IMG/VR virus record: IMGVR_UViG_3300045999_002198
Coordinates: 1 to 22,840 of that record
Origin: a virus
Length of the DNA: 22,840 bases
Reading direction: 5' to 3' (one strand)
Positions 17,107-22,500 of the stretch are shown one piece after another. The position numbers and the translations under genes are program-made. The notes beneath the pieces were generated by a model that had not been told where the DNA came from, searched no databases, and was given only the letters and a program-made list of their open reading frames with translations. Every line of letters starts with the position of its first letter. The first letter of the stretch is position 1.

Positions 17107-18642
17107 TCAAGACCCCATCCATGATGTAGAAATTCCAGCGGGAGAATACCCGCTTGTGCGGCGCTTGTCAACGCGTCCTAGACGCGGATCGGTAGATGCT
17201 ACAGGAAACGCGAACGTGACCGCTATGGCGTCCGCAGCGTCAGGCGATGCTAGGCCGCGCGCCTTCATATCCTTCTTGCTTTCGAGGAACAGCGTACCCT
17301 TGCTGTCAGGCTTGGTGCGCGGGCTGATGAGGTCGGTTTTCAGGAACCTATCGGTCGGTATATGGCCTGTTTTCAGCCAGTCGCGCATGGCGCCCCACAT
17401 TTCGGCCCGTTTGTTGCCCCACATGGTCTGATTTTTGGCTTTATTGCCGAAATTCACACCGCGTATCTTGTACCGCTGCTCTTTCAGCCGGTCTACGACG
17501 CCTGCGCCTAGCCCGCCTTCGTCGATGCAGACCAGCGCCGGCTTAAACTCTTCTATGGCGTCGATGACATGGCCTGCAACTTCCATAGTGTCCGCCCCGC
17601 GGTGCCTGCGTAGCTCCAAAATGTCCCGCCCTTGGCGCACAGCGATGACGGTAGCGTCCGCCCCGAAGCGTGCAGGGTCTACGCCTATGACAATCGGCGC
17701 TGATGCGTCTCTGGCGGGTGTCCGTTTCATGGCGTCATCGACCAAATTGCTGCCGATAAACTGATCGTCGCCTTCTGACGGGAAATTACCATAAACTTCG
17801 ACGCTGGCTTGGTAGCTGTCAGGCCCATATTCGTCGATAATGCGCTGATACAGGTTTTTATCTGTACCTTCGACATCGCGCGCGTCGATGACGCGTGTCT
17901 GCCAGAACGCGCGCTTGCTGTGAAACGTCTCGTAGAAATATCCTGTGTTCCGCCGCGGGTTGGAAAAGGCCAGATGGAAGCGGTGCGGCGTATTTTCGGT
18001 GAAGAAACCGTCTGATACGGACCATATCGAGTCTGGAATACCGCTGGCCTCGTCAAATATCAGCATGACACCGTCGAAGTTATGCACCCCTGCGTATGCG
18101 TCAGGGTTTTCTTCCGACCACAGCCGGCCTTCGACTGACCAATAGCGCGTACCTTTCTTCAGGTCGCGTTCGACCAGTTCCGTCAGCCACTTGGCTGGCA
18201 TGATGCGTGTGGCGGCTATCTCGAACCAGTGACTGTTAAGCGACATCGCCAGCCACTTAGTAATTTCTGCCCATGTTACTGACCGCAACTGCGCCTCAGA
18301 GTTAGCCGACACGATGGTTGTCGAGCCGATGCGGGTGGATAGCATCCAGATGGTAAGCCATGATACCAAGGCCGACTTGCCGATACCGCGGCCTGACGCA
18401 ATCGCCAGCCGCGCAGTGTCAAAGTCTACGTTGCCGTTGTTCTGCTTGATGTGGTCGCGCAAATCGGAGAGTATCTGACGCTGCCATTTACGCGGTCCGG
18501 GGAAATGTTCCAGCGGCGTACCCTGCTGCCCCCACGGGAATGTATATAATACGAACGCTAGTGGGTCATCCTTCAGGCTGGGCGACCACAACCTTGCCAT
18601 CAACTCCATCTCGTCTTGGGCTGAATATATCGGTGCTTGCAT
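17107..18642 (-). CDS. terL: Terminase large subunit
   Basis: A 511-residue packaging ATPase/nuclease. Walker A is SGRGIGKSA (residues 83-91) and Walker B is VMLIFDEAS (192-200, catalytic Glu198). The coupling motif region HLAFSNPRRNTG follows (about 223-234). The C-terminal RNase H-like nuclease has acidic residues in VIGVDPARFGADATV (Asp322), LVCIDEGGLGAG (Asp374) and SPDAADAIAVTF (Asp468 or Asp471). The motor cuts concatemeric DNA and pumps it through the portal. The ATG lies 77 bases inside the small subunit gene, a strong overlap that couples their synthesis. Length and motif spacing are normal, so it should be active. Confidence 0.95.
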   Translation of the reverse strand: MQAPIYSAQDEMELMARLWSPSLKDDPLAFVLYTFPWGQQGTPLEHFPGPRKWQRQILSDLRDHIKQNNGNVDFDTARLAIASGRGIGKSALVSWLTIWMLSTRIGSTTIVSANSEAQLRSVTWAEITKWLAMSLNSHWFEIAATRIMPAKWLTELVERDLKKGTRYWSVEGRLWSEENPDAYAGVHNFDGVMLIFDEASGIPDSIWSVSDGFFTENTPHRFHLAFSNPRRNTGYFYETFHSKRAFWQTRVIDARDVEGTDKNLYQRIIDEYGPDSYQASVEVYGNFPSEGDDQFIGSNLVDDAMKRTPARDASAPIVIGVDPARFGADATVIAVRQGRDILELRRHRGADTMEVAGHVIDAIEEFKPALVCIDEGGLGAGVVDRLKEQRYKIRGVNFGNKAKNQTMWGNKRAEMWGAMRDWLKTGHIPTDRFLKTDLISPRTKPDSKGTLFLESKKDMKARGLASPDAADAIAVTFAFPVASTDPRLGRVDKRRTSGYSPAGISTSWMGS

Positions 18643-19072
18643 TGCTGGTGTCCTCTAGCTGCGCTGGGGGCGTCACGTCCGTGTACATCCCTTCGATGAC
18701 GCGTGACTGTGCTTTTTCCAGCGCGCCTGTAATGCTTATCTGTTGGTCGATGTTCACGTCGATCTGCTGCTTGGCTACCCAGCCGTGCTGATGCTTGAGT
18801 ATCTCTAGCGCAGCCTTGCTGTCGCCATCGCGCGCCGCTTCGTACATCGTCTTAGCCGCAGTGTACTCGCCGTCGCTGCGACCTTTGATCTCAGCCATCT
18901 CGACCAGCGGGTCAGCGTCGGCCAGCACACGAAATTGCCGTGGGGTCAATCCAGCCGCCATAGCAAGGCTGTCGCCCTTAAGGCCGTAGCGGGCAGCTTC
19001 ATAGATTGCCTCTAGCCGCGCCTCGGTTGCTTGCACCCGCTCAGGTGTAAATGGCAGTGAGTAGAAAGTCAT
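18566..19072 (-). CDS. terS: Terminase small subunit-like protein
   Basis: A 168-residue protein from ATG 19072. Residues about 8-50 (FTPERVQATEARLEAIYEAARYGLKGDSLAMAAGLTPRQFRVLAD) form a helix-turn-helix of the kind used by small terminases to bind the packaging site. Residues about 55-90 (EMAEIKGRSDGEYTAAKTMYEAARDGDSKAALEILKHQHGW) form the helical oligomerisation core. The rest is a charged tail. The frame extends upstream to ATG 19096 and further, but those codons lie inside a sigma70-like promoter (19080-19108) whose predicted start is about one base before ATG 19072. That favours the downstream start and an almost leaderless message. It is the first gene of the late operon. Confidence 0.8.
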   Translation of the reverse strand: MTFYSLPFTPERVQATEARLEAIYEAARYGLKGDSLAMAAGLTPRQFRVLADADPLVEMAEIKGRSDGEYTAAKTMYEAARDGDSKAALEILKHQHGWVAKQQIDVNIDQQISITGALEKAQSRVIEGMYTDVTPPAQLEDTSNASTDIFSPRRDGVDGKVVVAQPEG

Positions 19073-19079
19073 TGGGCGT

Positions 19080-19108
19080 ACTATAGTGTGTTGCATTCTG
19101 ATTTGCAA
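19080..19108 (-). promoter_or_regulatory. Sigma70-like leftward (late) promoter
   Basis: Read on the minus strand, -35 TTGCAA (19108-19103) is followed by a 17-base spacer and -10 TATAGT (19085-19080). A T-rich stretch directly upstream (to about 19127) could act as an UP element. The expected start point is about 19073, one base before the terS ATG. It is the only good promoter I see for the late operon. Confidence 0.6.
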
Positions 19109-19394: not shown

Positions 19395-19615
19395 CTAGGC
19401 GTTCTAGGTCATGACAATTCAAGTCGGCGATGAGTTGAGTTGACGTTAACGTAAACTGAGGAGAACAAACTGCGTAGGTGTATTACATGGGCAACACGCG
19501 CTAGGCGATCTAGGCTATCTGTTTTCAGTTGCCGTGAAATACATACGTATTAACCATATAGGTTATAAAATACAGAATATCTGTTAAATACCAAACCATT
19601 ACCTAGAACGCCTAG
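19395..19615. repeat. Three copies of a 15-bp CTAG doublet
   Basis: Doublet 1 is CTAGGCGTTCTAGGT at 19395-19409. Doublet 2 is CTAGGCGATCTAGGC at 19501-19515. Doublet 3 at 19601-19615 is the exact inverted copy of doublet 1 (ACCTAGAACGCCTAG). Within each, the two CTAG cores are 9 bases apart; the doublets are about 100 bases from each other. Confidence 0.85.
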
Positions 19616-19746
19616 AATTCTTGGCGAGACGCAGAAATCCGTCGCTTTTCCCTAGGTCATTTAGGGCGAAATCATGACCTAACAAATCGCCTAGTTCATG
19701 ACCCAAAAATCCGGGCATTTTTCCGGATAAATCCCCGATCCAAAAA

Positions 19747-19789
19747 CTAGGCAATTTCTAGGTCATTTCTAGGTCATTCTAGGTCATTT
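19747..19789. repeat. Helically phased CTAGGTCATT tandem array
   Basis: Four tandem units start at 19747, 19758, 19769 and 19779: CTAGGCAATTT, CTAGGTCATTT, CTAGGTCATT and CTAGGTCATTT. The periods of 11, 11 and 10 bases place every CTAG core on the same face of the helix. Further single sites are CTAGGTCATT at 19652, the inverted TAGGTCAT at 19674-19681, and CTAGTTCATG at 19691. Confidence 0.9.
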
Positions 19790-19983
19790 AGCATTCTGGA
19801 ACATACACGGAACAGAACCAGAACCTTTTCAGACTCGAACCTTTCCCATACTAACCTACCCTCAAACCCAAATCGCGCTGTATGAGGCTTAAAATCGGTT
19901 TTAGAGGGTAGTGCTAAAATGCCACACAATTTGCTGCAAATCCAGAAATCGACATCGCGGCGCAAAATAATGTCTTTTTAATA

Positions 19984-20007
19984 CCCTCATATTGTGTAGA
20001 ATGAGGG
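19984..20007. promoter_or_regulatory. Operator-like inverted repeat before the first rightward gene
   Basis: CCCTCAT and ATGAGGG form a 7-bp inverted repeat with a 10-base spacer. A -10-like TAGAAT (19997-20002) on the plus strand overlaps the right arm, but no convincing -35 is placed upstream. The first rightward ATG is 27 bases further on. Copies of the arm, TACCCTC and GAGGGTA, also occur at 19857 and 19904. This looks like a repressor or activator site. Confidence 0.45.
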
Positions 20008-20034
20008 CACAGCACGAACGAAAGGATTTTTAAA

Positions 20035-20199
20035 ATGACACCTACCAGCCAACAGATTTTCTGGGAAATCCACAGCCTAGAAATGGAGCTGACCGACCCA
20101 GTTAGAAGCAAAGGTATCGTCACGCATTTAAAAGCAGCCATTCGCAAGCGCCGGACACAATATTACCGCGCTCTGCGCGCCGAAGCAAAAGCAGCATAA
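20035..20199 (+). CDS. Small early protein, basic helical (54 aa)
   Basis: A 54-residue protein, MTPTSQQIFWEIHSLEMELT... continuing with LKAAIRKRRTQYYRALRAEAKAA. It is predicted to be two helices, with an acidic first and strongly basic second half. The AAAGGA ribosome site lies about 8 bases before ATG. It is the first gene after the divergent control region. I do not recognise it. The basic C-terminal helix could bind nucleic acid or a host protein. Clear codon bias, SD and tight spacing to the next gene (22 bases) support it. Confidence 0.6.
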   Translation: MTPTSQQIFWEIHSLEMELTDPVRSKGIVTHLKAAIRKRRTQYYRALRAEAKAA

Positions 20200-21968: not shown

Positions 21969-22175
21969 ATGACACACGACCAAATCGCAATCATCACGCT
22001 TTTAGCCATAGAAGCCGTAACCCTATACGCCCTATGGCTGACGCACCAGTCAGGCGAATGGTGGCGCAAGGCATGGCTACGCGATAGCGCCGAACTGCTG
22101 GAATGGAAGCGCAACGCTGTGCAGCGCGACCCCAAGACAGGCCGCTACGTTAAGAAGGTTAAGCGCAATGGATAG
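21969..22175 (+). CDS. Small single-pass membrane protein (68 aa)
   Basis: A 68-residue protein with one N-terminal hydrophobic segment (IAIITLLAIEAVTLYALWL, about 6-24) and then a cytoplasm-like, basic helical part (WWRKAWLRDSAELLEWKRNAVQRDPKTGRYVKKVKRNG). GGAGG lies 9 bases before ATG. It resembles small phage membrane proteins, possibly with holin- or exclusion-like roles, but its topology and place in the early block do not favour a holin. It overlaps the next gene by 8 bases. Confidence 0.6.
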   Translation: MTHDQIAIITLLAIEAVTLYALWLTHQSGEWWRKAWLRDSAELLEWKRNAVQRDPKTGRYVKKVKRNG

Positions 22176-22500
22176 GAACCTGCGCGCCAAGATACGCCAG
22201 CTATGCAGCTACATCACCGACAAGTCGGCGGTTATGCAATATATCAACAGGGAACGGAACCTTAACCTGACGCTGCGCGACATAGAGGCCGCTTGCGAAG
22301 GGATTAGGGACTATCGACCCAACCTCAAGCCTATGGCCCCGTCACCGCTAATCGTGACGCACAAGCAACAGGGATATGACGACCTAGCCCTCGCGCTGTT
22401 CAAATACCATGCCAAGCGCACGAAAGGCCCCGACCAAGCCTACTGGCTGGCACGACTGAACGACAGGCGACCCAAGCCCACCACCACCATAGAACTGTAA
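22168..22500 (+). CDS. Putative DNA-binding protein with helix-turn-helix-like region (110 aa)
   Basis: A 110-residue basic protein (MDRNLRAKIRQLCSYITDKSAVMQYINRERNLNLTLRDIEAACEGI). The first 45 residues form three helices whose second and third (SAVMQYINRERNLNLTLRDIEAACEGI) resemble a helix-turn-helix. The middle has SPLIVTHKQQGYDDLALALFKYHAKR and the end is basic with Pro/Thr. A DNA-binding regulatory role is possible; the family is not recognised. It starts within the previous gene, so translation is coupled. Confidence 0.55.
   Translation: MDRNLRAKIRQLCSYITDKSAVMQYINRERNLNLTLRDIEAACEGIRDYRPNLKPMAPSPLIVTHKQQGYDDLALALFKYHAKRTKGPDQAYWLARLNDRRPKPTTTIEL

Follow-up and report, generated by a model that had tools for sequence, protein, structure and literature searches.

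What is the role of the dense cluster of CTAG tetramers that lies between the leftward terminase genes and the rightward early genes of the uncultured phage analysed here? The window, i.e. the whole stretch of DNA under study, is a linear 22.8-kb fragment, for which an initial annotation had listed twelve CTAG in about 400 bases. All twelve are present (19395, 19404, 19501, 19510, 19603, 19612, 19652, 19691, 19747, 19758, 19769 and 19779), and the cluster stands far above the rest of the window, whose rate predicts 0.61 CTAG in a stretch of 400 bp (Poisson p 3e-12). When the region was shuffled with its dinucleotides preserved (n = 2000), the mean was 1.2 CTAG and the maximum 6; elsewhere in the window, 400 bp contain at most four. 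The general rarity of CTAG, which had been invoked as well, is not notable in this DNA (46 seen over the whole window, 55 expected).

The 9-bp word and the architecture of the region

The tetramer is only part of the true repeat unit, a 9-mer CTAGG[T/C]NAT that occurs in both orientations, and CTAG is only the window phage's spelling of a word that varies among its relatives. The proposed helical phasing holds for the four right-hand copies, which follow each other at 11, 11 and 10 bp, but the pairs at 19395/19404, 19501/19510 and 19598/19607 are exact head-to-tail repeats of 9 bp, and thus not all sites lie on one helical face. The features of the region and its surroundings are the following (window coordinates).

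17107..18642, minus strand: terL, terminase large subunit (PHROG phrog_2, E 2.6e-42)
18566..19096, minus strand: terS, directly before terL, left border of the candidate origin
19395..19412, plus strand: outer left pair of 9-mers, CTAGGCGTT CTAGGTCAT, head-to-tail at 9 bp
19443..19452: palindrome ACGTTAACGT, accessory site
19501..19518, plus strand: inner left pair, CTAGGCGAT CTAGGCTAT, head-to-tail at 9 bp
19519..19597: AT-rich spacer, candidate unwinding region, with the inner pairs inverted on either side
19552..19564: central dyad AACCATATAGGTT, halfway from one inner pair to the other
19598..19615, minus strand: inner right pair, inverted, CTAGGCGTT CTAGGTAAT
19652..19660, plus strand: single 9-mer CTAGGTCAT
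19674..19694, minus strand: two inverted 9-mers, TTAGGTCAT (19674-19682) and CTAGGCGAT (19686-19694)
19747..19787, plus strand: distal array CTAGGCAAT, CTAGGTCAT, CTAGGTCAT, CTAGGTCAT at 11, 11 and 10 bp
20035..20199, plus strand: first small rightward early ORF past the candidate origin, assigned from sequence
22168..22500, plus strand: F2, a conserved early protein

The terS product had no Pfam or PHROG match at threshold, and Rfam and tRNA scans returned nothing. Far from this region, a 639-aa protein encoded at 1064-2983 on the minus strand carries long repeats of the GYDTA / NRGTA type and is probably a virion or ejection protein.

Relatives keep the scaffold and change the word

Is the arrangement shared by related phages? 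We collected relatives by TerL, which gave 80 contigs with related terminases whose junctions upstream of terS were compared, and again by F0, a predicted primase-helicase described below, which yielded 41 phages with a clear word after dereplication; word types were assigned with patterns chosen after inspection of the junctions. Among these related uncultured podovirus contigs the scaffold is kept at the same place, the junction between terS and the early genes, with terS as neighbour in 33 of 33 relatives. Only part of the junctions contain CTAG; the others show the same arrangement with a different word, the observed words being CTAGG, TAGGC[TG]AT, CTGGGTCAT (CTGGG), GGACGTCAT and GTTGTCA. 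Absence of the array from close relatives had been named as a refuting observation: CTAG is indeed missing in many of them, but the array itself is present in another spelling.

The shared site map consists of an outer pair, a right-pointing inner pair (9 bp), an AT-rich spacer and a left-pointing inner pair, followed by single sites in both directions and then by copies about 9-13 bp apart. In relatives showing both inner pairs the spacer measures 93-127 bp with an AT content of 0.57-0.71. The dyad AACC-N5-GGTT is found in 28/41 junctions, as opposed to 2 copies in 526 kb outside them, and is unchanged in word-swapped relatives. The palindrome ACGTTAACGT likewise occurs in 28/41 junctions (0 in the 526 kb flank); it resembles operators of the LiuR/MerR type and is a candidate site of a putative regulator. 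Before the first early gene of the window lie GAGGG[TC]A words in both orientations (19857-19863, 19904-19910, 19982-19988 and 20003-20009). This word occurs 107 times in the junctions (39 of the 41) versus 67 times in 526 kb, and the cluster is probably a second, separate regulatory array of constant spelling.

The rewriting of the word can be followed site by site. Between the window and relative L141 the site coordinates match one by one, and when the window is aligned to L141 and G001, 13/13 sites change from A to G at position 3, including the outer left pair, which takes the CTGGG.. form, and all four copies of the distal array. In the same alignment, 4/4 copies of TAGG/CCTA outside the sites are unchanged, the dyad's copy included, at a background identity of 81%. 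A further relative, L207, whose TerL is 99% identical to that of the window, has three sites in the G form, and its array reads as an intermediate between the A and G spellings.

A DNA-level search for the window junction among cultured phages gave no match, and a search of bacterial genomes found a single contig, which belongs to a bin of an uncultured bacterium from Lake Erken. Upstream of the terminase operon in L208:780-900 and L210:14012-14107 lie about ten copies of CTAGGTCATGA, repeated every 11 bp; this phage has a different terminase (Terminase_6N), and word and place are the same with no relation detectable. In the relative L082 (MW202483.1, 10000-10700) a divergent wing, GMCFAPEL, accompanies an array of another word, around AGTTTACAT, before the terminase genes, and in the distant group (junctions of L252-L285) the array word TGTGGACAAT goes with the wing LKSR. 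Three relatives (G004:14028-14866, G009:13907-14733, G016:16397-17238) have a terS interrupted close to its 3' end by some 0.3 kb, which appears to be an insertion or intron-like element.

The word follows one residue of a predicted primase-helicase

Which protein follows the word? The initial annotation saw no matching initiator in the window, which is literally true: in relatives the gene of F0 is found some 3-5 kb rightward of the array, and the window ends just short of it. In these relatives, the rightward early genes abut a leftward replication block encoding F0 (~789 aa), DNA polymerase A (F3), F9 and F6. Pfam assigns F0 to DUF5906 (40.5 bits, cut-off 27.6) and also matches a VapE-like helicase, while RepB_primase stays just under its cut-off (E 1.3e-4, 22.4 bits against 24.3). 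A profile of F0 matches the helicase part of the NrS-1 phage PrimPol (6k9c/6k9e, E 8e-11).

We clustered the early genes in 33 relatives and scanned the variable columns of the neighbouring proteins against the word. A first hint of covariation came from the C-terminal 50 residues of F0 and from nowhere else. At position 738, the residue is G in 21/21 phages with AGG at word positions 3-5, N in 11/11 with ACG or TTG and A or H in 9/9 with GGG; the rule fits all 41 dereplicated phages, and 32/32 outside the discovery set, and the residue explains 0.93 of the word-type entropy. The best columns of TerS, TerL, F1, F2, F3, F4, F5, F6, F8 and F9 reach 0.25-0.53. F11 attained 1.00, with 14 sequences against 121 columns, which we judged to be overfitting. 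None of the early proteins tested (F1, F2, F4, F5 and F8) has a sequence that follows the word, and TerS or an early HTH protein as the binder was rejected for lack of covariation. F2, the binder put forward by the initial annotation, does not track the word: near-identical F2 proteins go with three different words, and its best column explains 0.39 versus 0.93 for the helicase.

Could relatedness alone produce this pattern? The similarity within and between word types is 0.886/0.874 for the F0 body and 0.846/0.845 for TerS. The F0-body tree calls for 13 word-type changes and 13 changes of residue 738, and in 8/8 independent pairs word and residue change together (p 0.008). Thus, the nearly equal identities and the tree indicate that relatedness does not explain the covariation.

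Where in the protein does this residue lie? The C-terminal element order is predicted as H-E-H-H-E-loop-E, and AlphaFold models of F0 agree on a helix at 719-728 and a strand at 732-737, followed by a loop that starts at 738 and a strand at 746-750, with residue 738 as the first residue of the loop between the two C-terminal strands, at moderate confidence (pLDDT 68). This position would make residue 738 the opening residue of the wing in a predicted C-terminal winged helix. A PDB fold search with the C-terminal model gave no significant match (best E 0.17), the top ones being winged-helix proteins.

The rule is not universal. F0 proteins with the variant IACV go with mixed AGG/GGG arrays, and CTAGGTCAT arrays are also found in two distant relatives with G at the 738-equivalent, L205 and L213, and in L214, which has L there. 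In the distant group, K at this position accompanies GTGGACA in 8/8 cases and A mostly TGGGTC, but A738 is also seen with TAGG and TTGGCA, and the 738-equivalent is not the top column; these exceptions imply that the code depends on context. A column scan in this group was discarded as a source of the code, being confounded by phylogeny and yielding no clean code.

A candidate replication origin

Taken together, we consider it very probable that the CTAG cluster (~19395-19791) is the DNA replication origin of the phage, with iterons that are read by its primase-helicase F0. This reading rests on three observations: the word is tracked by a predicted primase-helicase, an AT-rich dyad separates arms of opposite orientation, and an exact DnaA box occurs at a part of the junctions. 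The window contains several short direct repeats in a non-coding region (13 sites) and beside them an AT-rich element (97-bp spacing, AT 0.68) with its central dyad. Specificity of the initiator for the repeat is supported by the covariation in relatives, from whose F0 we extrapolate to the initiator that the window phage would encode beyond the end of the fragment. TTATCCACA, the exact DnaA box, is present in 17/41 junctions and not once in the 526 kb flank; its distance from the dyad is 165-169 or 175-176 bp, two classes about one helical turn apart. The window holds no exact DnaA box, and GC skew at 4-fold sites, tried as a mark of the origin, has mixed signs and no clean switch at the junction (TerL +0.04, portal -0.16, F0 -0.05). 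The suggestion of an iteron-type origin in the initial annotation is thus well supported by covariation, symmetry and the DnaA boxes of relatives.

We infer the following course of initiation. The 9-bp words flanking the AT-rich spacer with its central dyad would be bound by the predicted C-terminal winged helix of F0, a putative AEP prim-pol with an SF3-type helicase. F0 would load on the two arms, possibly forming a pair of rings turned towards the spacer, and the spacer would then melt; the prim-pol domain may prime in the melted spacer, DNA polymerase A of the phage would extend, and a contribution of host DnaA is possible. From its place at the beginning of the predicted wing, residue 738 would read word positions 3-5 (G: AGG; N: ACG or TTG; A/H: GGG), and by this contact initiator and origin would change together.

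Alternative explanations

The initial annotation also considered a repressor or activator array that governs the divergent late and early operons; such an operator array could be of the immunity type. Its place between these operons would suit such a function, as would the further regulatory-looking sites packed there (GAGGG[TC]A and ACGTTAACGT), and in repressor immunity groups many operator copies also change in concert. However, the word follows a primase-helicase and none of the small early proteins tested, the inverted arms about an AT-rich dyad and the DnaA boxes at fixed distance are features of an origin, and a sigma-70-like promoter was not found in the region. We therefore regard a transcriptional operator array as improbable and control of both operons by it as unsupported, although autoregulation by the initiator at the array is possible.

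Even less probable, in our judgement, is a packaging site (cos or pac) read by the small terminase. The array immediately precedes terS and adjoins terS/terL in every relative, and the dyad resembles a cosN palindrome in form; yet close phages with different words share 83-93% identity in TerS, its similarity is the same within and between word types, and its best column captures 0.31 of the type entropy. It is equally hard to credit that the array and the 3' end of F0 merely travel as one recombining cassette with no direct contact. These phages are mosaic and the two elements are only ~3-5 kb apart, but the intervening F1, F2, F4, F5 and F8 and the adjoining terS do not track the word, and within F0 only the wing residues do, not the body.

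Implications and comparison with known systems

How initiator specificity can change jointly with dozens of origin sites has long been asked for plasmids, satellites and viruses alike. We tentatively propose, as a possibility that we hold with far less assurance than the origin itself, an evolvable initiator-origin code in which one wing residue selects the three-base core of the word and origins of about 13 sites have, in a close group, been converted to match it on at least 13 occasions. If true, co-infecting relatives or satellites would be kept off each other's initiator, much like incompatibility groups in a phage population. Many natural pairs of close relatives, which differ in one to four wing residues and whose origins are rewritten throughout, make the transition testable by a single-residue swap, and origins are predicted for a large group of uncultured phages. 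We found no described case of such a code in the openly accessible literature that was searched.

The closest functional parallels are initiators that combine helicase and origin recognition. In staphylococcal pathogenicity islands, the C-terminal domain of SaPI Rep reads iterons, and the origin lies just downstream of rep (PMC7581432). The pairing of short iterons with the C-terminal domain of a helicase initiator is seen both in SaPI Rep, a helicase that loads itself, and in SCCmec Cch2 and its putative origin, and SaPI5 Rep is a fusion of primase and helicase (PMC7581432), as F0 is predicted to be. In contrast to SaPI, the array studied here is ~3-5 kb from F0 with several genes between, and in a close group of phages its word has been respelled at least 13 times in step with a single wing residue. 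The alpha protein of satellite phage P4 is a similar multifunctional protein at origin repeats, to which its winged-helix domain binds before unwinding and priming; it differs in its TOPRIM-type primase (PMC4234260), whereas F0 has a putative AEP-type prim-pol domain.

The NrS-1 primase-polymerase, the closest solved relative of the helicase part of F0 (6k9c/6k9e), recognises 5'-TTTGGTTA-3', present once per strand in the NrS-1 genome (PMC8718748, PMC7102993); it is not known to act at an iteron array. The dyad of the window holds GGTTA on both strands and so resembles TTTGGTTA, which is only a lead; the exact 8-mer as a junction signal was dropped, since it is not enriched here.

Finally, the replication proteins of pRN1 (ORF904) and Bordetella phage BIP-1 share with F0, as predicted, the order of AEP primase, SF3 helicase and C-terminal winged helix, and this architecture has been proposed to assemble at a stem-loop that lies 3' of the gene rather than at iterons (PMC4234260). 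Our comparison argues that such proteins may also read iterons, and would thereby speak against the stem-loop proposal for prim-pol/SF3/winged-helix initiators as a class.
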